NCBI GenBank assembly: GCA_937925595.1
Contig: CALALQ010000493.1
Location: 28,229 to 92,228, forward strand
Reading direction: 5' to 3'
Origin: an uncultured Demequina sp.
GTDB taxonomy: Bacteria > Actinomycetota > Actinomycetes > Actinomycetales > Demequinaceae
Length of the DNA stretch: 64,000 bases
The position numbers and the translations under genes are program-made. Below are positions 7,488 through 26,967 of the stretch, one piece after another. The notes beneath the pieces were generated by a model. That model saw only the letters and a program-made list of their open reading frames with translations. It made no database searches and was not told the DNA's origin. The first letter of the stretch is position 1. Each line of letters starts with the position of its first letter.

Positions 7488-9269
7488 ATGTTCCACGTCA
7501 GTGATGAGAATGCCAAGTACCCCGCTCTTTTCGGTTTCAGCGCACCGCTTCCGAAGTCGTCGCGACCCATCGTCGGTCGTGAGCGGGAGATCGCTCAGTT
7601 GATGGCCGCGATGAGCCGCCCTGAGCTGTGCAACGCGCTGCTGCTCGCCCCTCCCGGGTCCGGCAAGACCGCGCTGGTGCAGGCCGCGATGGAGTCGGAC
7701 GGCGAGCGAAAGTACCTCGAGGTGGATCTCGCCCAGATGATCGCCGACTTGGACAGCTCGGACAAGATGGCCGCCAAGCTCAAGGATCTCTTCGACGAGG
7801 CGGAGCGCTACTGCGCCGACGAGCACGTCGAGCTGGTGCTATTCATCGACGAGTTCCATCAGATCGTGCAGCTGTCCCCGGCAGCCGTCGAAGCGCTCAA
7901 GCCCGTGCTCGCAGCGTCGGGAGCGCGCGGTATCCGTGTGATTGCAGCGACCACCGACGACGAGTTCGACCAGTTCATCAAGCCGAACCAGCCTCTCGTC
8001 GAGCGGCTGCAGCGCATCATCGTGAACCCGCCCGACAAGGCGACCACCATGAAGATCATGCGTGGCATGGCCGAGCGATACGGCGTGGCCGACCAGTTCT
8101 ACGACGACCACATCTTCGGACTCATCCACGAGTACACCGAGCGCTATATCCCCGCCTCCACCCAGCCGCGAAAGTCGATCCTGGTGCTCGACGCGATGGT
8201 CGGCTGGCACCGTGCAACGAAGCGCCCGATGGATAGGGCGCTGCTGGCCGACGTGCTCGAAGAGTCCGTCGGCATCAACGTGGCTTTCCGCGTTGATGCG
8301 GCGCAGATCAAGGCGGAACTCGACAGCACGGTGCTCAGCCAGCAATGGGCGACGTCCGTACTCGCCCGTCGCCTCCAGCTGTGCGTGGCGGACTTGCACG
8401 ACAAGACCAAGCCCGCTTCGTCGTTCCTGTTCACCGGTTCGACCGGTGTTGGCAAGACGGAGTTGACCAAGCAGCTCGCGCGGCTCATGTTCGGCGACGC
8501 CCGCAAGCACTTGATCCGGTTCGATATGTCGGAGTACGCGCGGGACTCCTCTGCAGAGCAGTTCCGCAAGGAGCTGACCAGCAGGGTGTGGCACACGAGC
8601 CACTCGGTGGTCCTGCTGGACGAGATCGAGAAGGCGTCGCCGCTGGTGACACGCATGCTGCTGCAGGTTCTGGACGACGGTCGGCTCTCGGATGCGAACG
8701 GGCGTCAGGTGTCGTTCCTCAACACCTACATCGTGCTGACCACCAATGCGGGGTCGGAGATCTACCAGACCATCGCGCAATACAACGTGGATGACACCGG
8801 CTCCGGCGCCCAGCTCGTGGAGAAGATGAAGGAGATCAAACGCTCCATCACCGCGACGCAGGGGGACAACCGGTTCCCGCCGGAACTGCTCGGTCGTATC
8901 GACGCGATCGTGCCGTTCCAGCCTCTGTCTCGGGAGACCCAGCGCAAGATCGTCACCGCCAAGCTCGCCGCCTTCGTCCAGGAGGTGCTCACCAAGCACA
9001 GCGCTCGGGTGTTCATCGCCGAGCGTGTCATCGACTATCTGATCGAGGACAAGGTCGACACTGACGCGGATGCCGGTGGTGCACGTGCCGCGGTGACCAG
9101 GCTCACGGATGAGGTCGCCACCGGCGTGGCCGAGTTCCTCAACAACCACCCCGGCGTGCGGGCGATCCAGGTCAGCGTCGAGGGCTCGCTTCGAGCCGAC
9201 GACAAGGAGCTGCTCAAGAGCGACGCTCGCGTCGTCGTCGGCCTCCCCGCCGTCGCGAGGGCCGCCTGA
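7488..9269 (+). CDS. Double-AAA+ Clp-like ATPase
   Basis: 593 residues, start ATG at 7488 behind CGGAGGGTCGCAGGG. The first AAA+ module has Walker A APPGSGKT (54-61) and Walker B LVLFIDEFH (about 118-126); the second has GSTGVGKT (about 317-324), VVLLDEIEKA (about 373-382) and sensor-like VLTTNAGSE. The order and the second-module sequence are those of ClpA/ClpB/ClpC unfoldases, which thread proteins through a hexameric pore. It is shorter than ClpB/ClpC and lacks the N-terminal repeat domain and the ClpB middle domain. Its place among transfer genes suggests remodelling of relaxosome or machine proteins. A second Clp-like gene lies at 36856. Confidence 0.8.
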   Translation: MFHVSDENAKYPALFGFSAPLPKSSRPIVGREREIAQLMAAMSRPELCNALLLAPPGSGKTALVQAAMESDGERKYLEVDLAQMIADLDSSDKMAAKLKDLFDEAERYCADEHVELVLFIDEFHQIVQLSPAAVEALKPVLAASGARGIRVIAATTDDEFDQFIKPNQPLVERLQRIIVNPPDKATTMKIMRGMAERYGVADQFYDDHIFGLIHEYTERYIPASTQPRKSILVLDAMVGWHRATKRPMDRALLADVLEESVGINVAFRVDAAQIKAELDSTVLSQQWATSVLARRLQLCVADLHDKTKPASSFLFTGSTGVGKTELTKQLARLMFGDARKHLIRFDMSEYARDSSAEQFRKELTSRVWHTSHSVVLLDEIEKASPLVTRMLLQVLDDGRLSDANGRQVSFLNTYIVLTTNAGSEIYQTIAQYNVDDTGSGAQLVEKMKEIKRSITATQGDNRFPPELLGRIDAIVPFQPLSRETQRKIVTAKLAAFVQEVLTKHSARVFIAERVIDYLIEDKVDTDADAGGARAAVTRLTDEVATGVAEFLNNHPGVRAIQVSVEGSLRADDKELLKSDARVVVGLPAVARAA

Positions 9270-9372: not shown

Positions 9373-11628
9373 ATGGGTTTTGGTCGCAAGAAGAGTAAGG
9401 CGCAGGGCGAGCCCGCCGCCGCAGAAGCACCCGAGCCGGTGGCCGCAGAGCCGCCCGCCAGCCGCAAGGGAAAGAAGCGCAAGCCGGCCGAGTTGCTGTC
9501 GAGCGTCGTGAACGAGAGCGCCACCGGCGCCGCGATCGACCTGCTCAAGCGCAACGACCCCTTCGCCCTTCCCAACGGGACCTCGTGGGTGGGACTGCTG
9601 CTGTCCGTCGACCAGATCGGCGGCCTGAGCCAGAAGCAGAAGAACGACGCCACGAAGGGTTCGATCATCGAGCTCATCGCGGCGGACAAGATCCAGGTGG
9701 TCGCCACGAAGGCGATGCTCGACGAGGAGTTCCTCGGCCTGATCCCGAACCCTGACACGCTCACGCGCATGGACGAGTATCGCCTGCTGACGGATGCGCC
9801 CTACTACTGGGTGGTCTTCCGCACCGAGGACAACGGGAACACCCTCATCGCTGACGCGGTGCAGGACGTCGCCGCCAGCTACGCCACCGCAGTGGCGATC
9901 TCCCGGGGGGAGCGGACGCTGGAGCAGGTGCTCCCGCACGTCTGGTCCTGGGGCTCGGAGTCCATGGGCGAATTCGATCGCCTTCTCGTCGGCGCGACCG
10001 CGCGTGCCGCTTCGGCAGAGTCCGGCAGGTCGGCGATCACGGCGGACCCGATGGCCGACGCCATGGACAACGCCGGGGGCGCCACCTTCGACTTCCCCGA
10101 CATGGATGACGCCGTGATCGACCCGCTGAGCGGCGTCGTCAGCGAAGCCGAGCCCGAGGTGCAGGACGAGCCGTTGCCGTTCGACGAGGCGCAGTTCGAG
10201 CAGCAGTTCGCGGACTCAGCCGACGCTGGCGACGAGCATGACCCCTTCGAGAACGAATGGGACGGCGAGATCCCCGCCACACCTGACGAGCCCGAAGCCG
10301 ACGAGCCCACCGCCGACACCGGGTACTTCCAGTACCTCGTGGAGAACAAGGATCGCGTCGTCGACGAGCAGGAGGTCCGCGACACCATCGCCCGACGCTT
10401 CCTCAGCAACGACCTCGACCTGGTGGTCGACCTTGCGGAGTTCGAGGCCGTGTTCGGCACCCAGCCCGAAGCGATCGAACTGGAGATCGCCGCCGACGCG
10501 ACCGACTGGCTCGGATCGCAGGTCGCACAACTGAGCCGTCAGGCCAATGCGGAACTCGCCGCACTGCACCAGGGGCACGCCGACGAACTGCGACAGCTGT
10601 TCGTCGAGACGATGGCGCTCCACGTCGAGAAGACGATGGGTGCGGTCTCCACCGACACCGCCGGCGCTCCTTACGCCAACCTGATGGAGAGCGCCAAGCG
10701 GGACTTCGACAGCAAGCGCGCCAACTCCGCTCAGGAGGTCGCTGAGCAGCGGCGCGAGATCATCGCGCGCTTCGAGGCCGCCGCCCAGAGTCGCGCCGAC
10801 CAGGCCGCTGCTCACGCCAAGGCCGTCTACGAGGACAAGAACCGCCCCAAGCTCGAGCGCGACCTCGCCGAGATCGCCCTGGACCACGACCGCCGGGTGG
10901 AGGAGCAGTACGCTCACGACCGCCAGACGGTCCTCGAGATGCGCCGGAAGGAAGCCCTCGTTCGCATGGACGTCGGCACCAACCGCGCCTTCGAGTACCT
11001 CCGCGGCATCCAGCAGGAGCAGCGAGAGGCTGAGCGCCGCCTTCTCGAACTGTGGAACGGCCGCCTTGTGCAGTTCATCGACGAGAACCGCAAGAACGAC
11101 GTCGCCCGTGCCGCCGTCCTGGCGGAAGAGCTGGCTCGCACGAACCAGGTCGACACGCTGAAGGCGGAGCACCAGGCGACGGTCGCCGAACTGACCGCTC
11201 GCGCGGCGGCCCGCGAGGCGGAGCTGAACGCAGAGCTGGTTCGGACCCGCGAGGCAGGTCTTGCCGAACTGACCGCTCGCCGGAGCGAGTGGGAGACCGC
11301 TATCGGGCTGGAAAAGGATCGCGCCCGAGGCAACAGCGACCTCATCGAGCAGCTCCGCGGTCAGATCAACGACCTGGGCGCGCAGTACGAGGGTCAGTAC
11401 TCGGCACGCATTGCCATTCTCGAAGCAGACCGCGAGGCGGCGGCTTCGGAGCTGGAGCGCTCGCACGCGATGCAGAAGCGCACGAACCAGATGCTCGTCC
11501 TGCTGATGCTCGTGCTGACCCTAGCCGGTGTCGCCGTCGGCGTCATCGCGGGCTGGGCCTGGGGTCACCAGCAGCCCGTGGAGGTGATTCCCGCCGGCGC
11601 CGCCGTGCTGGGAGCCCTCCTCCCATGA
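9373..11628 (+). CDS. Long coiled-coil protein with C-terminal membrane anchor
   Basis: 751 residues, start ATG at 9373 with AGGAAGGAC upstream. Residues 1-35 are basic and Ala/Pro/Glu-rich; 36-220 form a compact domain; 230-330 is acidic and probably disordered; about 385-705 is an almost unbroken Glu/Arg/Ala coiled coil; one strongly hydrophobic segment follows (LVLLMLVLTLAGVAVGVIAGW, given here without its flanks) at about 712-735, with a short C-terminal tail. This is a tail-anchored cytoplasmic rod. Just before the coupling protein gene, it may tether or organise the transfer machine at the membrane. No family recognised. Confidence 0.55.
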   Translation: MGFGRKKSKAQGEPAAAEAPEPVAAEPPASRKGKKRKPAELLSSVVNESATGAAIDLLKRNDPFALPNGTSWVGLLLSVDQIGGLSQKQKNDATKGSIIELIAADKIQVVATKAMLDEEFLGLIPNPDTLTRMDEYRLLTDAPYYWVVFRTEDNGNTLIADAVQDVAASYATAVAISRGERTLEQVLPHVWSWGSESMGEFDRLLVGATARAASAESGRSAITADPMADAMDNAGGATFDFPDMDDAVIDPLSGVVSEAEPEVQDEPLPFDEAQFEQQFADSADAGDEHDPFENEWDGEIPATPDEPEADEPTADTGYFQYLVENKDRVVDEQEVRDTIARRFLSNDLDLVVDLAEFEAVFGTQPEAIELEIAADATDWLGSQVAQLSRQANAELAALHQGHADELRQLFVETMALHVEKTMGAVSTDTAGAPYANLMESAKRDFDSKRANSAQEVAEQRREIIARFEAAAQSRADQAAAHAKAVYEDKNRPKLERDLAEIALDHDRRVEEQYAHDRQTVLEMRRKEALVRMDVGTNRAFEYLRGIQQEQREAERRLLELWNGRLVQFIDENRKNDVARAAVLAEELARTNQVDTLKAEHQATVAELTARAAAREAELNAELVRTREAGLAELTARRSEWETAIGLEKDRARGNSDLIEQLRGQINDLGAQYEGQYSARIAILEADREAAASELERSHAMQKRTNQMLVLLMLVLTLAGVAVGVIAGWAWGHQQPVEVIPAGAAVLGALLP

Positions 11629-11746: not shown

Positions 11747-11758
11747 CTCGAATATGAG
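11747..11758. promoter_or_regulatory. Operator-like palindrome, site 8
   Basis: CTCGAATATGAG with AAAACTG left and CCGAAACAG right; TAGACT box at 11725-11730. The ATG at 11754 lies inside the palindrome. Confidence 0.7.
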
Positions 11759-11786
11759 CCGAAACAGAAGATGGAAGCGAGTCGGC

Positions 11787-14700
11787 ATGGCGAAGAAGGC
11801 GACCCATCCGAAGGCCACGAACTGGGACAAGCTCTCCGCCCGGCAGCCCGGTGAGACCCTGAAGAACCGGGATGTCTTCGAGGACCAGCAACTCGATCGC
11901 TCCCGAATCGACCCGCGTCGGACAAAGACCAGCCGCACGATCGCCGCGGCCGTCGTCGGCGTCATCAGCGGCCTGCTGGCCTGGGTGGTGCTGTCTGCAG
12001 TTGCCGTCATGCTCACGATGCTCGGCAGCCTCGGCGGAACGCTTGAGGGTTCAACGGGCTTCTACGAGCGCGTGAAGCTCAGCGAGTACGGCACCAAGAA
12101 CTGCTACCAGATCCTCAACGCGGACGGGACGTGGGACGAGAGCGCCCCCTGCTACCCGACCGAGCAGGAGGCCGGAGAGAACCCGCCGAAGTGGTGGACC
12201 GATAAGGACAACGTCACAGTAGAAGCGGTCGACGGCCAGGAAGTCACGCAGAGGGACTTCGTCGGGGAGCTGACGAACCCGGAGCTGATGCGTCTCCTGC
12301 TCTCGTTTGTCATCGGCCTCGGCGTCTTCGGCTCGGTGCATGCGGTGCTGATGCGCAACCTCGACGCGCAGAACCTGATGAACGACACCTCCGACATCAA
12401 CCAGTACACCGGCGACCAGCACATCGCGCTGCCTGACGAGGTCATGCGCAAGTTCGACTGGTTCCCCGACGCCGGCGCTCACTCCAAGGTGCAGTTCAGC
12501 TCGATGATCAGCCACGTCATGATCACGAACAAGGGACTCAAGAAGATCGAGGTCGCGACCAGGGCCGACAAGGAGATCCTGGACGAGGACGGCGACGTCG
12601 AGTACCTCAAGGGCGAGATCCTCCGCGATGAGAACGAGAACGCGATCACGCGCACGATGCCGATGGTCGACGAGGAGTTCGGCGACGCCCTCTTCGAGGC
12701 ATCCGGCATGCCGGAAGGCAAGAAGTACCGCAAGAAGTACGACACCACGCAGGTCCCGTACAACCCGGACGGCGCCGACCGCAGCAAGCTCGGCAACTAC
12801 GCGACCGTCGCCGATCTGATCAACAGCGACTGGACGTTCCCGGAGTACGAAGTGCAGCGCCCGGGTGGCGCGTACCTGGTCGACACCGCCCCGGTGAACA
12901 CGATGGTGCTGGCCATCACCCGTGCCGGTAAGGGTCAGACGTACATCGAGCCGGTCATTGATATGTGGCTCCGCGAAGAGGACCCGAGCAACCTGGTCAT
13001 CAACGACTCCAAGGGCGAGCTGCTCGTCAAGAACTACGTCCCCGCCACCAAGCGCGGATTCCAGGTGGTGCAGTTCAACCTCATCAATGCGATGAAGACC
13101 GACATCTACAACCCGCTGGGCATGGCGGCCGACGCCGCCCGCGAGGGTGACGCGGCCAAGTGCGCCCTGTACGTCGAGAACATCGCCGACGTGTTCTTCC
13201 CGCTCGATGGGGGAGAGGACCCGGTGTGGCCGGCTGCCGCCAACAACGCCTTCAAGCGTGCCGCGTACGGCCTCATCGACTACTACCTCGAGGAGGAGCG
13301 TGAGCTTCGCGCATACGCCTCGCGCACGAGCATGGACCCGAAGATCCTGGAGAACCGCCTCGACCAGCTCTGGGGCAAGGTCACGCTCTACAACTGCTAC
13401 CAGCTGTTCGTGCAGCTGACGGCGAAGAAGATGAAGAACCCCATGAAGGCCCTCGAGCAGCGCGTCAAGCGCGGGGAGTTCGGCGACCCGCAGGGTGACG
13501 ACTTCGACGTCGACACCTACGAGGAGGAGCGGGACATCGCCACGCGCAAGGCGTTCCTGTGGGAGGACAAGGACGAGCTGGACATGCTCACCCTGTTCTT
13601 CAACGCAACCCAGAGCCTTCCTCGCAACTCGATGCGCACCCTGGTCAGCAACGCCGACAACGCACTGCGCGCGATGGGCGCGGCCGAGAAGATGCTCGCC
13701 AGCGTCTACGGCATCGCGATCACGGCCATGTCGTTCTTCACCGACCCCACCATCTCGACGCTCACCTCGGGTGCGCCGTCGCAGAACACCGACCTCGGTG
13801 GGCTCTCCTTCCCCCGCCGCATGGGCGTGCGCTTCGGCATGAACTACCTCAAGCGCGACCACCTCACCGGCGCCCAGGTGAAGTGGGACGCCTTCGCGGA
13901 TGCCGCCTTCCAGCAGCCGCTCGGCCCCGACTTCGACCACCAGGACATCGTGTCCCGTGAAGGATGGGCGCGCTACTACTTCAAGGGCAAGTTCGTCGGC
14001 GACGTCGCGTACCTGCGTCTGCGCCTGCTCAACGCGCAGACCGGCATGCTGATCCGCACCTTCTACTTCCGCTTCACGAAGGACTACCAGACCTCCCTCA
14101 ACGGCCGATACTTCATCACCGACCCCATCTCGGGGGAGAAGATCGTCAAGAACGGGATCCTCGTCGAACTCCGTCAGAACGAGAAGACAGGCGTGTACGA
14201 GCCCAGCAAGACCACGTACCCGCAGATGCAGCTGACCAACATCACGCTCGGCATGCCCGACAAGGCGCTCGTGCAGGCTGAGGCGATCGTGTCGACCCAG
14301 GTCCGATACAGCGAGAAGCCGAAGGTCGTCTTCCTGGTGACCCCTCCGCACCTGATGAAGTACGCCAAGCTGATCCTGATCCTCATCAAGCAGCTGGTGG
14401 ACCTCAACTTCGACCGCTCATACATGACCAAGGCCGACCAGAAGCCGCTCTATCGGACGCGCTTCATGCTCGACGAGCTCGGCAACCTCCAGTCGGAGGG
14501 TCACGGTATCGCTGGCTTCGAGACGATGCTCTCTATCGGCCTCGGCCAGGAGCAGGAGTTCACGATCATCCTGCAGACGCTGCAGCAGCTGCGCGATGTC
14601 TACGGGGAGTCCGTCGACAAGATCGTGCAGGGCAACACCTCGAACATCGTGTTCCTGAAGTCGACCGACGACTCGATGCTCGACACCCTGCAGAAGATGT

Positions 14701-15764
14701 CCGGAACGCGCCACCGCGCCTACCGCGACGCCAAGACCGTGACCAAGGACACCGAGCGGCTCATTCGCGGGCTCAACGTCGAGGGCAAGGTCTCGTACAC
14801 GATGACCACTCGCGAGGAGCCGGTGATCTCGTACAACGACATGGCGTTCATCTCGGAGCGCAACAGCATCGTCTTCCGCGCCGGTGACGCGCCGGTGTGG
14901 AACCGCAACGAGACGATCCTTCCCATGTCCTGGCGGCTGTTCAAGGACACGATCGTCCACCCGGGCCACGAGTACACGCTCCAGACGATTCCGACGCTCA
15001 GCTCGGCGCTGGACTTCGATGTGCGCCTGAACCAGCCCGACTTCGAGAAGATGCTCGCCAAGCGCATGCTCCAGGCTGAGAACGCCGTTGACTGCAAGAC
15101 GGTCTACCAGGCCGCTCACGAGTACGAGGACGTCGACATCGCACGCCTGGACCCCGACGTCTACAGCGAGGAGGTCATGCAGCTGGTGGACGTGTCGCTT
15201 CGTGAGACGATCTCCGATCAGACCGGCGTCACCCCTGACGAGGTGGATCTTGATGACGCGCCTGAGGGCTTCTACGACAACGGCGACTGGGAGGCCGATC
15301 TCGAGATGCAGCAGGCGGTCGAGGCCGCCCAGGCGGACGCCGCGGTGCGCACGGAGCTGCGGTACGCCGGCGGCCAGATCAGCCGCGAGATGCTCGTGCG
15401 CGCTGATGGTCGGGCGCTGCAGAACCCGCTGGACCGCGAGATCGTCGAGGCGTACAAGGCCGCCCGCGCCTACATGGAGCGCGACAGCCGGCACTTCAGT
15501 GTCGGCGCTGGGGGAGCGCTGCGATCGGTCGACGGGCGGATCGTCTACATCGACAAGGTCGACGAGTCGGACTCGGTGCGTGCGCTGAACGCGGCCGCGC
15601 AGGATGCAGGCACCGGCGTCTACGCGGAGGACCAGCTCGACGCGTTCACCGGATACATGGTGACGGGGGAGTTCTACGAGTACCTCGCCTCGCTGGAGGA
15701 CTGGCGTGACATCGCCGGTGGAGAGTTCGAGCGAGCCATGATGCTCGCGATGCGAGACAAGTGA
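11787..15764 (+). CDS. VirD4/TraG-type coupling ATPase
   Basis: 1325 residues. The ATG at 11787 has GGAAG upstream; the in-frame ATG at 11754 lies within an operator and is rejected. Two membrane segments (about 51-77 and 168-190) flank a roughly 90-residue outer loop. A P-loop-like AITRAGKGQT lies near 375-385, NDSKGEL near 406-412 (the coupling-protein variant of DxKGE), and Walker B RFMLDELGN at 892-900, followed by a Gln-rich stretch typical of the family. Such hexamers bring relaxase-bound DNA to the type IV channel. The P-loop departs from GxxxxGK[ST], and the protein is roughly twice the usual 600 residues, with a long C-terminal extension. Confidence 0.85.
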   Translation: MAKKATHPKATNWDKLSARQPGETLKNRDVFEDQQLDRSRIDPRRTKTSRTIAAAVVGVISGLLAWVVLSAVAVMLTMLGSLGGTLEGSTGFYERVKLSEYGTKNCYQILNADGTWDESAPCYPTEQEAGENPPKWWTDKDNVTVEAVDGQEVTQRDFVGELTNPELMRLLLSFVIGLGVFGSVHAVLMRNLDAQNLMNDTSDINQYTGDQHIALPDEVMRKFDWFPDAGAHSKVQFSSMISHVMITNKGLKKIEVATRADKEILDEDGDVEYLKGEILRDENENAITRTMPMVDEEFGDALFEASGMPEGKKYRKKYDTTQVPYNPDGADRSKLGNYATVADLINSDWTFPEYEVQRPGGAYLVDTAPVNTMVLAITRAGKGQTYIEPVIDMWLREEDPSNLVINDSKGELLVKNYVPATKRGFQVVQFNLINAMKTDIYNPLGMAADAAREGDAAKCALYVENIADVFFPLDGGEDPVWPAAANNAFKRAAYGLIDYYLEEERELRAYASRTSMDPKILENRLDQLWGKVTLYNCYQLFVQLTAKKMKNPMKALEQRVKRGEFGDPQGDDFDVDTYEEERDIATRKAFLWEDKDELDMLTLFFNATQSLPRNSMRTLVSNADNALRAMGAAEKMLASVYGIAITAMSFFTDPTISTLTSGAPSQNTDLGGLSFPRRMGVRFGMNYLKRDHLTGAQVKWDAFADAAFQQPLGPDFDHQDIVSREGWARYYFKGKFVGDVAYLRLRLLNAQTGMLIRTFYFRFTKDYQTSLNGRYFITDPISGEKIVKNGILVELRQNEKTGVYEPSKTTYPQMQLTNITLGMPDKALVQAEAIVSTQVRYSEKPKVVFLVTPPHLMKYAKLILILIKQLVDLNFDRSYMTKADQKPLYRTRFMLDELGNLQSEGHGIAGFETMLSIGLGQEQEFTIILQTLQQLRDVYGESVDKIVQGNTSNIVFLKSTDDSMLDTLQKMSGTRHRAYRDAKTVTKDTERLIRGLNVEGKVSYTMTTREEPVISYNDMAFISERNSIVFRAGDAPVWNRNETILPMSWRLFKDTIVHPGHEYTLQTIPTLSSALDFDVRLNQPDFEKMLAKRMLQAENAVDCKTVYQAAHEYEDVDIARLDPDVYSEEVMQLVDVSLRETISDQTGVTPDEVDLDDAPEGFYDNGDWEADLEMQQAVEAAQADAAVRTELRYAGGQISREMLVRADGRALQNPLDREIVEAYKAARAYMERDSRHFSVGAGGALRSVDGRIVYIDKVDESDSVRALNAAAQDAGTGVYAEDQLDAFTGYMVTGEFYEYLASLEDWRDIAGGEFERAMMLAMRDK

Positions 15765-15879: not shown

Positions 15880-15883
15880 CCCG

Positions 15884-18800
15884 ATGGATCCGCGTAGTCC
15901 AGGCATGCGCCGCTACCTGTACGAGCACCTTTTCCAGCAGACGATCGAACGGACGAAGGAAGCGACGGGGAAGACCATCCTGGTCTCCGCGGCACGCGAC
16001 CTCCGCGCGAAGGTGGAGCGCAAGCTCGCCACCGAGGGTCTGTCCATGTCCGACGCCAACCTGGGGATCACCCCGGTTCTCCGGGCGATCGAGACCACGA
16101 TGCGCGAGAACGTCCCGGGATACCCCGGCGTTTTCGGCGATGCCACACCCACCTCCCCCGCGTACGTCCAGATGCAGACGTCGTTCTTCAACATGGCGGG
16201 CTTCTCCCGTCGGACCGAGGACGGCACTGTCGTCCAGCCCACGCCGGGCAAGGCCGGCCCCCGCCTCCCCATCTCGCCCTACGACCCGCGCTGGGCTGTC
16301 CGTGCAGCGGTGAAGCAGGCCGGGTCGCAGGTCCGATACGTGCTCGACCACGAGATCGCCCAGCTGGCCGGCGGCGACGCCTCGCGCATCAGTGAGGTCA
16401 AGACACAGGACCTGCACCTGTACCAGCTCGACGAGAGCGGTCAGGCGATCGAAGCGGGCGAGGCGTACAGCTACGACGACGCCAGCGGCATCACCGAGCT
16501 GATGACCCGCATGAGCGAGCAGGAGTACCTCCACGTCCGTGACTGGGTCATCGACGGCGCCCGCGGGGTCGATGGACGCGTGAACGAGAAGCGCTTCATG
16601 TCGGGGGCCGCACTCGAGCGCGCAGCGGCGATCCTCGACGAGCTCCGCTCGCAGGGTGTCAGCTACACCGTGCGCCGCGACCGCAACCCCGGTCAGATCC
16701 GCGCCGAGATCACCGGGACAAAGATCGCCGTGCGCCTCACCGAGCCGCGCGAGGCAGAGCACTTCGTCGGCCGCGTGTACGACGACGGTGTGGTCACCCA
16801 CTACTCGACCAACGTGAAGGCCGAGCGCGGCAACAAGACCGTGCCGTACACGCCGACCGCTGAGGAAGCCGTGGCGCTGCTGCGCATCGCGCAGGGCAAG
16901 CCCGTCAAGCGGTTCGATGGCAAGGGCCTCATCGGCGAGGTCGGCACTCACGCCGAGGTCGAGTGGGACAAGGAAGCCGGACGCCGCGTCCCGGTCGAGA
17001 TGCAGGACTCGTACGTGTCCAGCAACGACAAGGCGACCATGGCTGTCGCCGGCGACCTCATCATCGACGGCAAGCCCGCCGGTCCCGGGGCGAAGGTGTT
17101 CGTTCGCCGCTCGGCCAAGACGCGCAGCACGACTGCTCAGTTCTTCCGCGACGCGGAGACCGGCGAGGCGTACCTGCGCGAGGCCATCGACAGCGCACGC
17201 GAGAACCTCGCGGAGTCGCTCGAGGTGGACCGCCTGATCGCGGAGTACGAGGAGCGCCCCGAGGAAGCGGCTGCAGGGGAGTGGTTCCCCGACTTCAGCG
17301 GCGACGCCGAGATCGCGGCGATCCAGCGCGCATACTGGGACGTCCTCCGTGGCGCCCAGACGACGCTTCTTCGCTCGGGTGCCACCGAGGAGGACTACCT
17401 CGACAAGGTCGGCGTCATCGGGGAGCTGCAGGTGGACAGCGACATCGCTCGCACCACCCACGACATGCTCGTCAGCGACCTGGCCTACGTCGGCTCCGCT
17501 GCCCAGAAGGTCCGCGACCACGCCGCCGACGTCGTCGACGAGCTGATCGGCTCCTACGAGCCGCACGACCAGGTGCTCCTGGACGGCGAGATCGTGACGC
17601 GACGCTTCGACCCGGTGCGCGTGGCCAAGCACATGACCAGCGAGTTCGGCCCCTGGCGCAACAACGCCGACATCGTGGCGGCGCTGCGAGTGACCGGCAT
17701 CAGCGGCGACGAGATGATGGGCTCCAGCTTCTACGCGACCGCCGTCAAGGACCGCCTCGTGCAGTTCGACCCGTCGACCGCGTACGAGCCGGGAAACCAC
17801 CCCGACCCCTTCGTCGGCCAGATGGGTACCGTCATCGGCAACGCGATCGAGCGCAACGGCGGTCGTGTCACTCGACTGGAGATCGACGCGCAGGGCATCG
17901 CTCAGTGGGAAGCCGAGCGGTACAGCCGCACCGGCAAGCCCGAGAAGATCAGCGGCCAGATCGGTCAGATCTTCGGCCGCGGCGAGCACGGTGAGGTCGT
18001 CACGCGATTCGCGGGCGGCGCCAACTACCTGTTCGTCCCCGGCTACGAGGCTCGCATCGCCTCCCAGCGCGCCGGCGAGGACCTCAGCGTCGAAGAGCGC
18101 ACGCTGCTGCGCGGCTACGAGCAGATCATGGCCGACAGCATCGAATACCAGGTCGCCAACGACATGCTCGTCATGCGCACGGAGGTCGGGGAGCCCACGT
18201 CCATCAACGGCGTCTACCGCCGCCTCTACGACGTGCGTCACGAGGTCGACTTCATCGAGCGGGCCACCAAGGAAGGTCTCGGTGAGCAGTGGGTCAGCGC
18301 GATCCTCGCCACCGAGGCGCGACGCGTGCGCTACCCCAGCGAGATCGCCTCGGGCTCGACCATCCACGCCGCCTGGCGCGCGGAGAACGGCGCGACCGGA
18401 GGCGACCCGGCCAACGACAACCGCTTCGACCCGTGGATCCTCACGGGTGGTCGCAACATGGCGATCATGACCGAAGAGGGCGACGGCTACTTCGACCCGG
18501 TGATGACCAACGGCGCCGTCTACCAGGGCATCACCCGCTACCTCGTCGAGGGCGCAAAGGTCGATGCCAAGACCGGTCGAGTCATCCCGAGCGAGGACAC
18601 CGCCGACCGCACCCCGCTGATGAAGCTGCCCGAGACCGAGATGATGCGGTTCGACCCGTACGACCGTCAGCAGATGTCGGCCTCGAACCTCCTCAACGCG
18701 GCCGCGGTGACCGAGCCGGTGGGCGTGGCGATGATGACGTTCGGCGGCTGGACGGCCGATGACCCGATGGTGGTCAGCAAGGAGTTCGCCGAGAAGCACG

Positions 18801-21469
18801 CCATCCGCGGCGCCGACGGTCAGCTGCGCGCACTCGTCCCCGGCGACAAGCTCAGCGACATGCACGGCAACAAGGGCGTCATCTCGCTCGTCGTCGACCG
18901 CAAGGCGCAGATCGGCCGCGACTACGACGAGTTCGACGTGAGCATGAACTACGCCGTGGATATGTTCAAGCTCAACCCCGAGCTGGACGTCGTGATGAGC
19001 CCGTTCTCCGCCGTGTCCCGCTTCAACGGCGGCACCGCGCGCGAGCTCATGCAGGAGCCCGGTGACCTGTCGCTGCCGTACAAGGGCCTCACCAAGGACA
19101 CGATGGGCAAGATGCGCCTGGTCGTGACGCACAAGGACGTCGAGCGCGGCACGCGTGTCTACGACGAGCAGGCCCTTCGCGAGGGGCGCGGTCGCAAGGC
19201 ATCCAGCCAGCTCGCCTGGGCACTCGGCTCCCAGGGTGCTGACCGCGTCATGGCGGAGTTCTACGGCCCGAACAACTCGGCCGTGGCCAACTTCCGCGAG
19301 ATGCTCGTCACGATGGGCCTCGACCTCGAGCCGGACGGCACGCTGCGTGTCGGGTACGACGACCTGGCCGAAGGCTCGGAGCGTCGCCTGTTCCCGATGC
19401 CGGAGCTGATCCTCACCACGACCGGATCGCTGAACGTGAACCGCATGAAGGCCGACTTCGGTCAGGTCATCGGCGACCGCGGTGGAGATCTCGAGCTGCC
19501 GTTCCCGCTGCGCTTCCCGACGGGTGAGCGCATCCCGACCGCGAGCGACTCGACCTGGAAGCTCCCGGTCATGAGTTCGCACCTGCGCAGCGGCCAGGAC
19601 CTCGACGACGGCCAGAGCACGGCGCACGACTACACCAACCAGTACCTCACGGTGTACGAGATGGCCGCGCGCTACCGGCACGCCAAGCACGTTCTGGAGA
19701 CGAGCCGCGAAGGTCTCACCGCCGCGCGCATCAGCCAGCTGGAGGACCAGATCGCGGAGGCTCCGCGCCGTGCGCAGTCGGCGTTCGACGCGATCACCGA
19801 CGACCTCAAGCGCAAGCGGTTCTCGGGCAAGCGGAACATCTTCAAGGAGGGCCTGATGTCCTCGCGGCTTCCGAACTCGGCGACCGCGGTCTGGACCAGC
19901 GACCCGCGCCTGGACATCGACCAGGTGGCGATCGGACCGGCGATGGCGGGTGCCCTCGGCCTCGAAGAGAACGACTACGCCCTGCTGTGGCGCGACCCGG
20001 TGCTCCGCGACGGTGGTGTGCGCTACATGCGGGTGAAGATCGACGAGCGTCTCACCGGCATCGCGATCAACCCCGTCATGGACAAGTCGTTCGACGGTGA
20101 CTTCGACGGTGACTCCGTTGCCGTCGTGCGCCTGACCAGCGACGCGGCCCGCCAGCAGGCGCTCGAGAAGCTGACCGTGGAGGCGAACCTGCTGGACCTC
20201 GGCCAGGTCGGACCCGACGCCCTGCACCCGCTGGCGATGCAGGACTCGCTCGACGTCAAGGTCACGCAGTTCGTGACCGAAGGCCGAGCGAACTCGTTCC
20301 GTGAGCGGTTCGAGGCGCTGAAGATGACCGCCAACGAGATCCAGAGCGACCTCGAGGACGGCATGATCGACGACTACCAGGCGTGGGAGCTTCGTCACGC
20401 GCTCGTCGGCAGCCTCTCGGACTACTACCGCGAGGCCATGCAGGGCCAGTACGGCGACGCGATCCTCCGCTTCGGCGACGCCGGCGATCACGTCAAGAGC
20501 GTGATCGAAGCGTGCATCGACACCGGCGCCAAGGGCTCGCTCTCCAAGATCGGCGACTACTGCCGCCACCTGGGCGTCGACCCCGACACGATGGTCGACC
20601 TCGGCGACACCAAGCACACCCGCACGGAGGACGAGGGCGTCATGATGGCCACGGCCGTCAAGTCGCACGGCACCGGCATCGCCGGCGCGTTCTCGCAGCG
20701 CGGCGTCAAGGCTCTGCGCAACAGCGAGCTGAAGGCGGTGCTTGAGCTGACCTACCCGGTGACGCAGTCGGTCCTCCAGGCAAAGCACGACCCGGAGGAG
20801 GCCAAGCAGAAGTACAACATGCTGATGGGTCCGGCTCGCGCTCTGTGGAAGGGTCGCAAGCTCATCGCCACGGCCGGCGAGGACGGCATGCGCCTCTGGG
20901 CGGTCGCCAAGGACGAGAAGGGTCGTGAGCTGCAGGCGGACGCGGAGACGTGGAAGGAGCAGTTCGTCGATCTCTACACGAGCAAGGACGGCCTGAACGT
21001 CTCGGTGAACGTCGACAACGTCGAGAAGGTCGCGGCTGCCCTTACCGCCCCCGACGGCAAGATCGTCGACATCGAGGACCCGGAGAGCGTTGCCGAGCTC
21101 GGCGCGGGTTCCACGATGGACCGGCTGGCATACGGCGGCAAGTTCGAGGACGTGCTCGCGGCGGCCGCCGCCCGCGAGAACATCTTCGCGGGCACCGAGA
21201 ACGCCCACTTCGCCCCGTACGCCGTCCGCGCGAACCAGCGTGCGATCGCACAGTGGGAGCGCGCGATCGAGGAGGGTGAGCCGGCGCCGGTGCTGGAGAC
21301 GCAGGTGCTCGCCAACCGCGACGTGCTCTCCGAGCGTGACACCCGGGCTCGTGCGCGCGGGGCCGGTCGCACCTCGGCGGTCGCTCAGACAGTCCGGGCG
21401 CCGCGGCCGCGGCCGACTTTCGAGTCGGCTGAGGACGCGCAGGTGGGGGTCGAGGACTTCCAGCTGTAA
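15884..21469 (+). CDS. Single-chain RNA polymerase with fused beta and beta-prime core motifs
   Basis: 1861 residues, start ATG at 15884 behind GAGGGG. The beta landmarks appear in order: DPYDRQQMSASN (924-935; compare DANRALMGSN in beta), GWTADDPMVVS (955-965; the ED site of beta) and GDKLSDMHGNKGVIS (987-1001), with Lys989 and Lys997 where beta has its two active-site lysines. Beta-prime landmarks follow: GKRNIFKEGLMSSRL (near 1315-1329), RDPVL (1370-1374), and DGDFDGDS (1404-1411), whose Asp1406, 1408 and 1410 form the Mg-binding triad. MQDSLDV and a TGAKGS element come next. Bridge helix and trigger loop could not be placed by eye. No alpha or omega subunit is in the window. Residues 1-900 are mostly unassignable. 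The tail ends EDFQL. Confidence 0.9.
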   Translation: MDPRSPGMRRYLYEHLFQQTIERTKEATGKTILVSAARDLRAKVERKLATEGLSMSDANLGITPVLRAIETTMRENVPGYPGVFGDATPTSPAYVQMQTSFFNMAGFSRRTEDGTVVQPTPGKAGPRLPISPYDPRWAVRAAVKQAGSQVRYVLDHEIAQLAGGDASRISEVKTQDLHLYQLDESGQAIEAGEAYSYDDASGITELMTRMSEQEYLHVRDWVIDGARGVDGRVNEKRFMSGAALERAAAILDELRSQGVSYTVRRDRNPGQIRAEITGTKIAVRLTEPREAEHFVGRVYDDGVVTHYSTNVKAERGNKTVPYTPTAEEAVALLRIAQGKPVKRFDGKGLIGEVGTHAEVEWDKEAGRRVPVEMQDSYVSSNDKATMAVAGDLIIDGKPAGPGAKVFVRRSAKTRSTTAQFFRDAETGEAYLREAIDSARENLAESLEVDRLIAEYEERPEEAAAGEWFPDFSGDAEIAAIQRAYWDVLRGAQTTLLRSGATEEDYLDKVGVIGELQVDSDIARTTHDMLVSDLAYVGSAAQKVRDHAADVVDELIGSYEPHDQVLLDGEIVTRRFDPVRVAKHMTSEFGPWRNNADIVAALRVTGISGDEMMGSSFYATAVKDRLVQFDPSTAYEPGNHPDPFVGQMGTVIGNAIERNGGRVTRLEIDAQGIAQWEAERYSRTGKPEKISGQIGQIFGRGEHGEVVTRFAGGANYLFVPGYEARIASQRAGEDLSVEERTLLRGYEQIMADSIEYQVANDMLVMRTEVGEPTSINGVYRRLYDVRHEVDFIERATKEGLGEQWVSAILATEARRVRYPSEIASGSTIHAAWRAENGATGGDPANDNRFDPWILTGGRNMAIMTEEGDGYFDPVMTNGAVYQGITRYLVEGAKVDAKTGRVIPSEDTADRTPLMKLPETEMMRFDPYDRQQMSASNLLNAAAVTEPVGVAMMTFGGWTADDPMVVSKEFAEKHAIRGADGQLRALVPGDKLSDMHGNKGVISLVVDRKAQIGRDYDEFDVSMNYAVDMFKLNPELDVVMSPFSAVSRFNGGTARELMQEPGDLSLPYKGLTKDTMGKMRLVVTHKDVERGTRVYDEQALREGRGRKASSQLAWALGSQGADRVMAEFYGPNNSAVANFREMLVTMGLDLEPDGTLRVGYDDLAEGSERRLFPMPELILTTTGSLNVNRMKADFGQVIGDRGGDLELPFPLRFPTGERIPTASDSTWKLPVMSSHLRSGQDLDDGQSTAHDYTNQYLTVYEMAARYRHAKHVLETSREGLTAARISQLEDQIAEAPRRAQSAFDAITDDLKRKRFSGKRNIFKEGLMSSRLPNSATAVWTSDPRLDIDQVAIGPAMAGALGLEENDYALLWRDPVLRDGGVRYMRVKIDERLTGIAINPVMDKSFDGDFDGDSVAVVRLTSDAARQQALEKLTVEANLLDLGQVGPDALHPLAMQDSLDVKVTQFVTEGRANSFRERFEALKMTANEIQSDLEDGMIDDYQAWELRHALVGSLSDYYREAMQGQYGDAILRFGDAGDHVKSVIEACIDTGAKGSLSKIGDYCRHLGVDPDTMVDLGDTKHTRTEDEGVMMATAVKSHGTGIAGAFSQRGVKALRNSELKAVLELTYPVTQSVLQAKHDPEEAKQKYNMLMGPARALWKGRKLIATAGEDGMRLWAVAKDEKGRELQADAETWKEQFVDLYTSKDGLNVSVNVDNVEKVAAALTAPDGKIVDIEDPESVAELGAGSTMDRLAYGGKFEDVLAAAAARENIFAGTENAHFAPYAVRANQRAIAQWERAIEEGEPAPVLETQVLANRDVLSERDTRARARGAGRTSAVAQTVRAPRPRPTFESAEDAQVGVEDFQL

Positions 21470-21481
21470 GCGGCTCGACAA

Positions 21482-21518
21482 GAAGAACCCCACCCCCTTC
21501 GCGGGGGTGGGGTTCTTC
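21482..21518 (+). terminator. 16-bp perfect terminator hairpin after the RNA polymerase gene
   Basis: The arms 21482-21497 and 21503-21518 are fully complementary around the loop TTCGC. No T run follows. It is among the strongest hairpins in the window. Confidence 0.8.
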
Positions 21519-23943: not shown

Positions 23944-23998
23944 CAGAAAACGAACCCAGCATCGGCGGGAATCGTAGCTCCGGATGAAGAGGACGGCG

Positions 23999-26098
23999 AT
24001 GGCTGGTCAGAAGCGCAAGCTCGGTATCCCGATCTACGAGACGGGCGAAGAGCCCGCGGGCATCTTCGATGAGGATGTCATCGACGCCGAGTGGCACGAG
24101 GACGACGTCCCCCTCGCCGAACGACTGCGCGCAACGGCGCACCTCGGCGCAGAAGCCGTCTCCGAGGCCGTACGCAATGTCCGGGTCAATGGCGTGCGCG
24201 ACTTCCTCCGCCAGCCTGCGGACCGGGTGCGGACTGCTCGTGGGACCGACGACCGGTGGGTGCGTGCCCGCCAGCAGGGTCGTGAGCAGCGCGCCCAGCA
24301 GGATGACGTCCGCAAAGCGCAGCGCGCCGACGCCAAGGCGACCAGCCGCGAGCGTGCCCGCCTCGAGCAGGAAGCGAAGCGCGACCCGCTCGCGAAGCTG
24401 CGCCTGGACACGATGCGCGCCGGCGAGTGGTACATGGCCGCGATCAAGCAGTCCGGCCTGCTCGACTCGGGTCAGACCAAGGAGACGCAGCGCAAGCAGC
24501 TCAGCGGCATCCACCAGGTCTACGCGTCGATGATGGTGCTCCAGTGCTTCCAGCCCCTCAAGGATGGCCTCAACGGCAAGAGCGTTGTCACCACTCTCGG
24601 TATGGCCGCCTCCATGTGGATGATGTCGCCCGACTTCCGCACCCACATGGGCAACGGCCTGAGCTCCGTTCGTCAGTCGATCGTGGACAAGATCGACGAG
24701 CGCACCGAGAAGAAGGATGAGAAGGCCCGCAACCGCTTCGAGAAGCTTGCCAAGCAGGGCAAGGGGGACCAGCTCGGTCGCAAGTGGCGCATGCGCCTCG
24801 AGCGGATCGAACGCGCTGAGCGCGGGCACCGCCTTCCCTTCACCGCGCAGAGTGCGGCGATGACGGAGGTGGCTCTCGCAGAGGCCGCCTACGCCGACAT
24901 GCGTCGCCCTGGGGCCAACGTCAGCGAGATCGACGACCGCTACCGTACGGCGCTGTCGGCGCTGTACGAGTACATCGAAGAAGACGGGATCGCCCCCGAA
25001 GAGGTCTCCCGCTCGATGCGCGTCATCGTGGGAACCCGGCTGGAGACCGAGCCGGAACTTGCGAGCGTGTTCAGCGAGCTGGCCCACGGCCGCTACGCGA
25101 AGAGCGAGCCGCGCGAGGTCTACATCAACGGCACCGGTGAGAAGGCGACGGTCTGGACCGGAGACTTCATCGACGCGTATGGCGGCAACACGATCATGTC
25201 GGGCTCGTTCCGCATGCGTGAGCGCATGGGCGCGGACGAGCACCGAGTGCACGCCTCCGAGACGCTGGCGGCCGAGCTGGTCGGCGTCACGAGCGTCGAG
25301 GAGATGGATCAGGTCTTCTCGCAGTACGTCGTGGCGGCGTCGGTGCGGAAGTACCCCGAGGTCGTCGACGAACTCACCGACCCGTCGGCTCGCACCCGCT
25401 TCGGCAAGGTGCGCGCGATGTTCTCGTCCATGCAGGACGACGGCCTGAGCGCCGAAGAGCAGGCATTTGCCTACAGCGCCGCGTACGTCGACGCGATCGA
25501 GATCGTGGAGCGCTTCCGACCGGAGATCGGCAAGGCGTGGGTCGCACAGCACGGTGAGAACTGGCGGGAGAAGGTCGCCGCCCAGATCCGGCTCTACAAC
25601 GACATGGGGGAGAAGGCGCGGCACGAGGCCCACGCTCACCAGGCCCCGGAGCAGGAGTACACTGCCACCGCTTACCGTGAGGACATCGTCGACGCCGACG
25701 TCGTCGACGACCACCGTGAGCCGAGCTCGGATCCGCGTGGTGCGGCAGCGTCAACCAGCGGAACGCGCACGGATGTCCCACGCGCGCCGCGGCGACCCCG
25801 ATCGGTCGAGCAGATGGTCTACGAAGGCGAGATCGACGACGACGAGGCTCCGGTGGACGAGATCATCATCGACGGTGAGGCCGAGGATCTGTCGCAGCTT
25901 GGCGCCGCTCGTGCCCGCCGGCAGATTCTCGCCAGGGCCGAGAGTGGAACGTCCGGCGACGTCGCCCGCGCGGTCGATGCGAAGGTGCGTCGCGCCAGGG
26001 TGAACCAGCACTACAACGAGGTCGACACCGGAGGCATTACGGGCATCGGAAGCGACGACGCCGCCCCGCTGCAGGATGTCGACTTCCAGCTGGGATAA
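23999..26098 (+). CDS. Large charged protein of the transfer arm, unknown function
   Basis: 699 residues. The ATG at 23999 has AGAGGAC upstream; an in-frame ATG at 23984 is poorly placed. Residues 60-140 are Arg/Ala/Gln-rich and helical. A weakly hydrophobic stretch at about 185-210 (VVTTLGMAASMWMMS) could touch a membrane. About 225-540 is a mostly helical domain and 560-660 is acidic and low complexity. The last residues are VDFQLG, close to the VEDFQL end of the RNA polymerase-like protein; the two share 12 identical bases there. Tandem operators and a TAGACT box precede it. No family recognised; a machine or relaxosome role is possible. Confidence 0.5.
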   Translation: MAGQKRKLGIPIYETGEEPAGIFDEDVIDAEWHEDDVPLAERLRATAHLGAEAVSEAVRNVRVNGVRDFLRQPADRVRTARGTDDRWVRARQQGREQRAQQDDVRKAQRADAKATSRERARLEQEAKRDPLAKLRLDTMRAGEWYMAAIKQSGLLDSGQTKETQRKQLSGIHQVYASMMVLQCFQPLKDGLNGKSVVTTLGMAASMWMMSPDFRTHMGNGLSSVRQSIVDKIDERTEKKDEKARNRFEKLAKQGKGDQLGRKWRMRLERIERAERGHRLPFTAQSAAMTEVALAEAAYADMRRPGANVSEIDDRYRTALSALYEYIEEDGIAPEEVSRSMRVIVGTRLETEPELASVFSELAHGRYAKSEPREVYINGTGEKATVWTGDFIDAYGGNTIMSGSFRMRERMGADEHRVHASETLAAELVGVTSVEEMDQVFSQYVVAASVRKYPEVVDELTDPSARTRFGKVRAMFSSMQDDGLSAEEQAFAYSAAYVDAIEIVERFRPEIGKAWVAQHGENWREKVAAQIRLYNDMGEKARHEAHAHQAPEQEYTATAYREDIVDADVVDDHREPSSDPRGAAASTSGTRTDVPRAPRRPRSVEQMVYEGEIDDDEAPVDEIIIDGEAEDLSQLGAARARRQILARAESGTSGDVARAVDAKVRRARVNQHYNEVDTGGITGIGSDDAAPLQDVDFQLG

Positions 26099-26133: not shown

Positions 26134-26185
26134 TCAACTCGTGCGATCACCCCCGGTCGGCGAGATCAGAGAAGGAGGGCATCGC

Positions 26186-26518
26186 ATGGGCATTATGGGT
26201 TTCCCCAGTGAGGGCGAGCTGGCCAGCATGATGGGCTTCGTCAGCGACGAGGACCGCAAGCGCTGGGAGCAGATGAAGGCTGAGTCGGATGCGCGCATCG
26301 CGGCTTCCGGCAAGGGGCTGTCTGCCCGCAATCTCGCGGCGCAGGCAGCGTCACCCGCGATGAGCATGGCAGAGAGGTCCGTCACGGCCGGTCTCCACGC
26401 CGCTCGCAACGAGCAGGCGCGTGACACTCAGGCGAAGAGAATGCGCAACGAGACTCGAACTGTCACATATACGAGCAGTGAGCCGGTATCGTCGGACGAG
26501 TACGAGCATGGATATTGA
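26186..26518 (+). CDS. Small hydrophilic protein of unknown function
   Basis: 110 residues. The ATG at 26186 follows GAAGGAGGG, one of the best ribosome binding sites in the window. The N-terminus MGIMGFPSEGELASMMGFVSDE is shortened here to its first residues: MGIMGFPSEGEL. The rest is Ala/Arg/Met-rich and probably helical. No membrane segment or known motif. Its C-terminal codons contain operator site 13, which serves the following HU-like gene. Confidence 0.5.
   Translation: MGIMGFPSEGELASMMGFVSDEDRKRWEQMKAESDARIAASGKGLSARNLAAQAASPAMSMAERSVTAGLHAARNEQARDTQAKRMRNETRTVTYTSSEPVSSDEYEHGY
26464..26475. promoter_or_regulatory. Operator-like palindrome, site 13, within coding sequence
   Basis: CACATATACGAG followed by CAGTGAG, inside the end of the 26186 gene and 127 bases before the HU-like gene. 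Confidence 0.5.
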
Positions 26519-26601: not shown

Positions 26602-26967
26602 ATGAGTGCAAAGACTGACGCTCCCGAGCAGGGACGCGTGAGCAAGCGCGAGTTCCTTCAGCGCGTCTCTCAGCGGTCAGGGGTGAACCCGCGGGCCACG
26701 CAGATGGTCTACGACGCGTTCATCGAGGAGATCCTGGACCAGGTCAAGGAGGGCAACCGCGTCACTCTCACCGGCTTCGGCAAGTTCTACCTGCAGCAGC
26801 ACAAGGGTCACCGCGTGCGCGTTGAGGGCAAGTTCAAGGAGGGCAGCCGCGAGATGAAGAAGGTCGACGACTACGCCGTCCTCAAGTTCTCCGCCACCCG
26901 CTCGCTCGATCGAGAGGGCTGGACAGTTGGCGCGTCTCTAGGCGCGGAGAAGAATCCCGGCCGCTGA
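26602..26967 (+). CDS. HU/IHF-family DNA-bending protein
   Basis: 121 residues, ATG at 26602 with CTTGGAGG upstream. Residues about 14-66 match the HU fold: KREFLQRVSQRSGVNPRATQ as the helical pair, then VTLTGFGKFYL, the family's G-F-G-F/K strand. The usual DNA-binding arm RxGRNPxTG is replaced by a basic stretch (HKGHRVRVEGKFKEG). The C-terminus is extended. HU proteins bend DNA and help assemble relaxosomes, origins and promoters. It lies just before the sigma factor and is followed by a terminator. Confidence 0.8.
   Translation: MSAKTDAPEQGRVSKREFLQRVSQRSGVNPRATQMVYDAFIEEILDQVKEGNRVTLTGFGKFYLQQHKGHRVRVEGKFKEGSREMKKVDDYAVLKFSATRSLDREGWTVGASLGAEKNPGR

Follow-up and report, generated by a model that had tools for sequence, protein, structure and literature searches.

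A predicted single-chain RNA polymerase encoded in the conjugation block of Gram-positive mobile elements

Introduction

What would a relative of the cellular RNA polymerase (RNAP) do among the conjugation genes of a mobile element? The question is raised by a 64,000-nucleotide stretch of DNA from an uncultured Demequina sp. (contig CALALQ010000493.1, positions 28,229 to 92,228), hereafter the window, in which a gene for a very large RNAP-like protein directly follows that for a VirD4-type coupling protein (T4CP). It has itself long been asked how the strand that enters a recipient by conjugation receives its first primer and its first transcription. Here, we present sequence evidence that supports an element-encoded polymerase in which the catalytic cores of the beta and beta-prime subunits are fused in one chain, and describe its conserved place beside the transfer genes of actinobacterial and firmicute elements. 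The reading that we tentatively favour, and to which we grant somewhat less than an even chance, is that the RNAP of the conjugation block leaves the donor through the type IV secretion system (T4SS) that the element itself encodes, together with the relaxase-bound strand, and makes RNA on the incoming single-stranded DNA (ssDNA) in the recipient.

Relationship to cellular RNA polymerases

The RNAP frame encodes 1861 amino acids followed by a stop codon and outscores all other frames of the window in length-weighted coding score, with GC fractions of 0.92 and 0.44 at the third and second codon positions, respectively. Its start possibly lies 21 nucleotides downstream of that given in Table 1, MRRYLYE being the N-terminus of two close homologues. 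An antisense open reading frame (ORF) of 1939 amino acids opposite the gene (15674-21493) was set aside as what we read as a GC artefact.

Two Pfam models matched over their cut-offs, Rpb2_6 at residues 980-1006 (E = 4e-6) and Rpb1_2 at residues 1360-1428 (E = 1e-6). In profile-profile comparisons with RpoC and RpoB from five actinobacterial genomes, residues 1212-1444 aligned with beta-prime 319-590 over 218 columns (Prob 97, E = 7e-11) and residues 979-1054 with beta 854-913 (Prob 95, E = 1.7e-8), accompanied by weak matches of residues 870-971 to beta 655-724 (Prob 29) and of residues 868-900 to beta 461-492 (Prob 0.1). An earlier interpretation of this DNA, made without database searches (the sequence-only reading), had proposed a single 1861-residue frame with beta and beta-prime catalytic cores fused in that order, and had suggested a profile search with RNAP families; the searches match both large subunits, the alignments fall in the same order, and the signature residues that it named are present, which supports the proposal.

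A PDB search with the single sequence returned phage P23-45 gp96 as the first match (8h2n, E = 6.7e-7), and a profile of 16 relatives matched 154 PDB sequences at E <= 0.01 (best E = 1.1e-17), the best 60 of which were all cellular RNAP subunits of the largest-subunit type. Judged by first and last aligned residues only, the one chain aligns with largest subunits from near their start into the C-terminal region. The DxDGD Mg triad of the beta-prime-type barrel (D1406, D1408, D1410) is present, and so are the two basic residues of the beta-type barrel, K989 and K997, which are invariant in 66 alignment rows. Across the family set of 161 proteins (P0001-P0161), DFDGD occurs in 159/161 and the motif GDK..D.HGNK in 158/161, and the catalytic motifs are retained down to ~20% identity, which suggests that the RNAP is catalytically active. 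The segment TQSVLQAKHD (1627-1636) was considered as a trigger-loop remnant and dropped, a profile search having placed it, non-significantly, on a C-terminal part of beta-prime (E = 0.36) and residues 1580-1635 being modelled as one long helix.

Residues 600-1799 were modelled as one core (predicted local distance difference test, pLDDT, 88.3; predicted template modelling score, pTM, 0.83), and residues 1-659 have a confident predicted fold (pLDDT 89.3) that found no match in a PDB comparison (best E = 0.16). The ~900 novel N-terminal residues of the sequence-only reading are hence too many, given the weak alignment of residues 870-971 with beta (Prob 29) and the single predicted core, and its estimate of a chain ~1000 residues shorter than beta plus beta-prime shrinks to ~620 when the two subunits encoded in a single actinobacterial genome are taken as the measure (1182 + 1303 amino acids, stop to stop). 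As no resemblance to beta can be recognised in the first ~650 residues, the part of beta and beta-prime that is missing must exceed 620 residues. As for the alpha and omega subunits, which that reading had called absent, neither family was listed for the 50 other ORFs scanned with Pfam (E <= 1 for part of them, E <= 0.01 for the rest).

Sigma contacts

In cellular RNAPs, the contacts to sigma lie in the beta flap and in the N-terminal clamp part of beta-prime. The flap (beta 725-853, 129 residues) is faced here by only 7 residues (972-978), if the weak preceding match (Prob 29) is right. Beta-prime 1-318 has no aligned counterpart in the profile-profile comparison, and at most 157 residues are available for it, this being the distance from the end of the beta alignment to the start of that with beta-prime, compared with ~247 plus 318 in the cellular subunits. 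A cellular rpoB-rpoC fusion is known from Helicobacter; unlike such a fusion, the chain described here does not retain the beta flap and the zinc-ribbon/clamp N-terminus of beta-prime, as far as an alignment with a weak first half can tell. By the same alignment, the gap between residues 971 and 979 leaves no sandwich-barrel-hybrid insert in the beta barrel. Mobile-element two-barrel RNAPs of the NCgl1702-like group also lack this insert, according to an excerpt of PMC7824862, and the likeness, compared by description only, is that of a mobile-element two-barrel enzyme; conjugation, export and fold are not mentioned in that excerpt.

The window encodes a FliA/WhiG-like sigma factor (27069-27971), whose model match lies under the cut-off, and the sequence-only reading had suggested this protein, placed at 27162, as a possible partner of the RNAP. 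That the RNAP is the core of a holoenzyme with this sigma is, in our estimate, very improbable: the sigma gene does share the strand of the RNAP gene, 5.6 kb downstream of it, and has a palindromic site in front, but none of seven related stretches contains a match to it (0/7), not even that of Plantibacter, whose RNAP is 79% identical, whereas the RNAP is present in 7/7, and the sigma-contacting flap and beta-prime N-terminus are without an aligned counterpart. Because those parts do not align and the sigma gene is unmatched in the seven relatives, we infer that the RNAP uses no classical sigma factor.

Conserved position in the conjugation block

In the window, the gene order is MobL relaxase, 193-residue protein, 117-residue ORF, Clp-type AAA ATPase, 751-residue protein, coupling protein and RNAP. 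The relaxase and coupling protein match Pfam families, as in MobL/VirD4-type Gram-positive conjugation systems, and the NCBIfam models for CD1115-type coupling proteins and MobP2 match under their cut-offs. Relaxase, AAA ATPase and coupling protein are each found in six of the seven related stretches, the seventh (L010, IMGVR_UViG_3300026735_000021) containing a coupling protein and an adjacent RNAP frame of 2072 residues; although filed as viral, L010 is probably a conjugative element. A phage origin was set aside, as neither the window RNAP nor a Staphylococcus RNAP matched any of 50,697 phage records, and of four matches in a viral collection L010 looks conjugative.

The RNAP gene stands immediately behind that of the coupling protein in six contexts (the window, Plantibacter, Streptomyces, Gordonia, Rhodococcus and L010) and, in those three Staphylococcus plasmids for which both are listed in the gene table, two genes farther on; in Lactococcus pJM1A the two are ~32 kb apart. 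Among the best 60 of 726 coupling-protein matches to plasmids, the top 12 plasmids (at least 324 bits; best other listed, 158) all bear the RNAP and none of the more distant ones does; 12/13 RNAP-bearing plasmid records are thereby included, pJM4A not being among these 60. Pairwise distances of the RNAP correlate with those of the coupling protein (r = 0.98, 36 pairs, 9 elements) and of MobL (r = 0.99, 21 pairs, 7 elements), the split between phyla contributing to both values.

The family spans two phyla, and the element is rare in the genomes sampled. A protein search yielded 159 proteins at E <= 0.001 with the window's own counted, and among the 120 listed every protein assigned to a named organism is actinobacterial, the usual annotation being "hypothetical protein" and in some cases "DNA-directed RNA polymerase"; a firmicute profile yielded 44 proteins, 29 of them with E below 1e-77. 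Matches to the RNAP occur in 13 of 72,556 plasmid records (five Staphylococcus, five Lactococcus, and one each of Streptomyces, Rhodococcus and Gordonia), in 1/299 genomes of a family sample (Plantibacter's) and in 1/396 genomes of a phylum sample, the single genome being the centre genome itself both times. Two metagenomic proteins of ~2550 residues (P0162, P0164) combine beta, beta-prime and LAGLIDADG domains, and 12 Clostridioides difficile plasmid records (H87-H98) contain a separate rpoB-like stretch, mostly annotated rpoB, that matched 3% of the query.

C-terminal tails of RNAP and relaxase

Relaxases are the classical substrates of T4SSs. In many of the RNAPs, a variable linker is followed by a short C-terminal motif of acidic and hydrophobic residues, for example VEDFQL in the window or GFELEM in Staphylococcus. 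With the truncated P0060 and the distant P0158-P0161 left out, the pattern was found at the C-termini of 57/131 actinobacterial and 18/25 firmicute RNAPs, compared with maxima of 7 and 4 in 1000 tail shuffles and with means of 1.2 and 0.4 (maxima 28 and 4) at internal cut points.

The RNAP-type motif is common to the relaxase in 3/4 Staphylococcus plasmids, whose relaxases end in DIELEL, EYEIEL, DIELDI and HVIEL. A regular expression for firmicute tails matched 6/243 ORFs on five plasmids, namely exactly three RNAPs and three relaxases, and 0/177 control ORFs. When proteins were ranked with a profile built from other RNAP tails only, the relaxases came 2/44, 2/65, 7/60 and 4/38 and the RNAPs 1, 1, 19 and 1; in the first tail test, the relaxases had ranked 1/43, tied first of 64, 27/59 and tied first of 37. 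The actinobacterial pattern marks 4/16 transfer-block proteins of the window (relaxase, 193-residue protein, RNAP and 704-residue protein) versus 0/33 others, and in the related sets 1/16 in Streptomyces, 4/15 and 1/15 in two Gordonia stretches and 2/15 in Rhodococcus, with 2/105 in controls.

Primases in RNAP-free relatives

Among 22 RNAP-free records with a related relaxase, four were examined; three of these encode a DUF3991/TOPRIM protein within three genes of the relaxase (two of the three were covered by the Pfam check), and in the fourth, from Bacillus badius, the place of the TOPRIM primase is taken by a topoisomerase and a Fic protein. In a tblastn search of 14 stretches, mostly partial, from 12 elements that bear the RNAP, the three TOPRIM proteins had no homologue (the window, Plantibacter, L002-L006, L008, L010 and L021-L025). 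In these few elements, the RNAP may thus have replaced the primase. In the RNAP-free records L047 and L048, the relaxase and its neighbour (a TOPRIM primase or a Fic protein) end alike (EMER/EVER and GYER/SPER), perhaps another export tail.

Proposed role and alternatives

Under the export reading, the RNAP would leave the donor through the T4SS of the element alongside the relaxase-bound strand, with the shared tail possibly serving as an export signal read by the coupling protein and the neighbouring Clp-type ATPase perhaps helping to unfold or load the cargo. In the recipient, it would synthesise RNA on the entering ssDNA independently of sigma, and the product could become the primer for second-strand synthesis, the first transcripts, or both. 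A wider proposition, which we hold with more doubt, is that Gram-positive elements across phyla deliver a cell-type, sigma-free RNAP with ssDNA in place of a primase, that is, a plasmid "virion RNA polymerase" starting both replication and expression.

A number of observations weigh against export. The RNAP itself misses the tail pattern in Streptomyces, Gordonia and Rhodococcus, and among these three the relaxase matches only in Rhodococcus; the tail test clearly fails for the S. aureus plasmid (RNAP 19th and relaxase 7th of 60), the relaxase of pHD75-1_1 comes no higher than 4th of 38, and in Lactococcus pJM1A nothing matches the firmicute expression. A single internal cut point reaches up to 28/131 actinobacterial proteins, the sequences being related; the expressions were composed after the tails had been viewed, and the plasmids are related, so that matches are not independent. 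The tail of the RNAP could also be a degradation or partner-binding motif. As for the primase, it may lie elsewhere on the partly covered RNAP-bearing elements, and the B. badius topoisomerase has homologues in Staphylococcus and Gordonia elements that do bear the RNAP. Finally, no trigger loop was identified by profile search. This last result favours an inactive polymerase core that would serve the transfer machinery in a structural role or in handling DNA, an alternative that we consider quite improbable in view of catalytic motifs kept by 159 and 158 of the 161 family proteins, down to ~20% identity.

A more serious contender, doubtful as we hold it to be, is an element transcriptase that stays in the donor, or acts on both sides without being exported, and reads the transfer genes from its own promoters in the manner of YonO or the yeast linear-plasmid RNAP. 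The evidence bearing on it comes from upstream regions. An expectation-maximisation motif search found a palindromic motif in 8/15 upstream regions of the window, including that of the RNAP gene (score 100 versus 61-69 in four shuffles), and in Plantibacter a diverged version with the same layout and changed arms before the matching genes (87 versus 58-65 in shuffles). The Streptomyces and Gordonia sets gave no palindromic motif clear of shuffles, the Rhodococcus motif (72 versus 61-63) is without a palindrome, and that of Staphylococcus (80 versus 56-64) resembles a ribosome-binding site; shuffles had fewer starts, which biases all these comparisons toward the real sets. In a site scan of the window, the top four scores (31-36) belonged to training sites and other intergenic sites scored from 29 to ~20, with three lesser matches within genes and no more than 15.6 in the reversed sequence. 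A TANNNT box lies near 8/12 sites of the window and 5/9 of Plantibacter (one site of each list being left out), compared with a background rate of 0.09 for each position in the gaps and with 0.04 expected by chance. A simple listing of palindromes was discarded, as it yielded chiefly terminator-like repeats.

On this sequence evidence, the sites look like a palindromic regulon placed before single transfer genes and governed by some regulator. A motif in front of many transfer genes, the RNAP gene included, in both the window and Plantibacter could supply the promoters of a donor-side transcriptase; one motif per gene recalls the upstream conserved sequences of yeast linear plasmids (excerpt of PMC6211774), and YonO transcribes the late genes of its phage (excerpt of PMC5467207). 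However, the motif is not separated from the shuffles in Streptomyces or Gordonia, is non-palindromic in Rhodococcus and resembles a ribosome-binding site in Staphylococcus, two-fold symmetric sites near TANNNT boxes fit host promoters under a dimeric regulator, and the tail common to RNAP and relaxase is left unexplained. Because of the two-fold symmetry, the arm differences between elements, the lack of a clear motif in Streptomyces and Gordonia and the adjoining TANNNT boxes, the sites are better read as probable operators on host-type promoters. The "element-specific transcriptase" of the sequence-only reading may still hold, but the gene context, with a conserved conjugation block and a relaxase-like C-terminus in several elements, points to DNA transfer.

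Comparison with known systems

The systems compared here are described from excerpts of the cited papers. The yeast linear-plasmid RNAP (K2ORF6p/K2ORF7p; PMC6211774) resembles the window RNAP as a mobile-element enzyme with fused beta and beta-prime parts and a conserved sequence before each gene, but comprises two subunits, with C-terminal beta-prime regions on the second protein, where the window has one chain; its plasmids are cytoplasmic eukaryotic elements with a capping enzyme and a helicase. YonO of SP-beta is likewise a single element-encoded chain with an Asp triad, and is active without other subunits, but, according to the excerpt, a few residues are all that its sequence has in common with cellular RNAPs (PMC5467207); on this description, the window RNAP, with its 218 beta-prime columns, is set apart. 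The best PDB match, the P23-45 virion RNAP gp96, is fused to a tape measure protein, and its authors propose transcription during phage DNA entry (PMC10770324); it differs as a phage tail protein, aligned over ~71 columns around DFDGD. The primases RP4 TraC1 and R64 SogL are plasmid proteins delivered to the recipient, where they prime the incoming strand (PMC5512222), but are TOPRIM-type enzymes of unrelated fold. The role that we propose would be akin to that of the RP4 and R64 conjugative primases or the N4 and P23-45 virion RNAPs, but with an enzyme kin to cellular RNAPs.

These comparisons also bear on a role in defence or counter-defence, for instance by RNA made on RNA or ssDNA that blunts the immunity of the recipient, with the QDE-1-like polymerases of RNA interference as the model. 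Enzymes of RNA interference are among the single-chain two-barrel polymerases (PMC10770324), and early effectors are linked to transfer genes on conjugative elements (PMC5512222). Nevertheless, we regard this role as quite improbable, as cellular beta-prime, in a five-sequence profile, aligns better (E = 7e-11, 218 columns) than gp96 (E = 3.5e-8, 71 columns) or gp64 (not significant), both single sequences, QDE-1 lying outside the comparison. Neither QDE-1 nor phi14:2 gp66 appeared among the listed matches of the searches, which does not speak against a relationship.

No report of an RNAP in a conjugation block was found in the open-access literature searched by titles and abstract openings, where an earlier mention is possible, nor was any earlier description found there of the linkage to the conjugation block, the relaxase-like tail, the absent sigma contacts or the cross-phylum spread. 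If export were shown, the system could be categorically new. Entry freed from the transcription machinery of the recipient would matter for the range of hosts, for evasion of early defences and for the span of these elements across Actinomycetota and Bacillota, and ideas on a minimal RNA polymerase could be compared with a compact enzyme that is related to the cellular one and apparently works without sigma.

Features and other genes of the window

Table 1. Features of the RNAP gene and of the surrounding transfer genes (positions in the window)
Feature	Position	Strand	Basis
Single-chain two-barrel RNA polymerase gene (predicted), 1861 residues	15884..21469	+	Pfam, profile and profile-profile matches
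RNAP N-terminal domain, residues 1-659, confident predicted fold, no PDB match	15884..17860	+	
Residues 868-900, resembling the beta "CPIETPEGPNIGL" region	18485..18583	+	very weak, Prob 0.1
Residues 955-965, GWTADDPMVVS, beta barrel strand	18746..18778	+	conservation in family; weak profile alignment, Prob 29
Residues 987-998, GDKLSDMHGNKG, catalytic beta lysines K989 and K997	18842..18877	+	Pfam, conservation, profile-profile
Residues 1212-1444, beta-prime catalytic part to beyond Mg triad	19517..20215	+	E = 7e-11; E = 1.1e-17
Residues 1406-1410, DFDGD, Mg-binding aspartate triad	20099..20113	+	invariant in 66 alignment rows; 159/161
Residues 1588-1606, candidate bridge helix	20645..20701	+	our reading of alignment invariants and helix 1580-1635 in model; profile not significant
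C-terminal tail VEDFQL, candidate export signal	21449..21466	+	tail comparisons
MobL relaxase, ends SDNGPISM	4026..6242	+	Pfam MobL, E = 3e-73
193-residue protein, ends DEPELG	6344..6925	+	related stretches, tail pattern
Clp-type double AAA ATPase of transfer block, candidate unfoldase	7488..9269	+	Pfam, related stretches
751-residue conserved transfer-block protein	9373..11628	+	related stretches
VirD4-type coupling protein (T4CP), directly upstream of RNAP	11754..15764	+	Pfam T4SS-DNA_transf
704-residue protein, ends DVDFQLG	23984..26098	+	homologues in four actinobacterial elements
125-residue protein, ends DEYEHGY	26141..26518	+	related stretches
HU-like DNA-binding protein	26602..26967	+	Pfam, related stretches
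Palindromic operator-like sites	2285-2306, 7451-7472, 9305-9326, 9335-9356, 11743-11764		before single transfer genes
Further palindromic operator-like sites	15776-15797 (+, before RNAP gene), 23897-23918, 26120-26141, 27030-27051		

Several further genes accompany those of Table 1. An ATP-dependent DNA ligase gene (22201-23190), without a match in the seven related stretches, lies between the genes for the RNAP and the 704-residue protein, and in the Streptomyces element the Clp-type AAA ATPase (L002:9123-13418) contains LAGLIDADG/homing-endonuclease domains, probably an intein. Farther downstream, the window encodes a protein of the PemK/MazF-like toxin-antitoxin family (31745-32413) and a group of AAA ATPases and weakly VWA-like proteins in MoxR-VWA style (36856-42543) that is kept in Plantibacter, followed on the minus strand by a 1077-residue protein (55024-58257) without Pfam or NCBIfam match that is 72% identical in Plantibacter. 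A P4-family primase C-terminal (D5-like) protein (58755-60413) and a tyrosine integrase (62374-63969) suggest an integrative or plasmid-like element.

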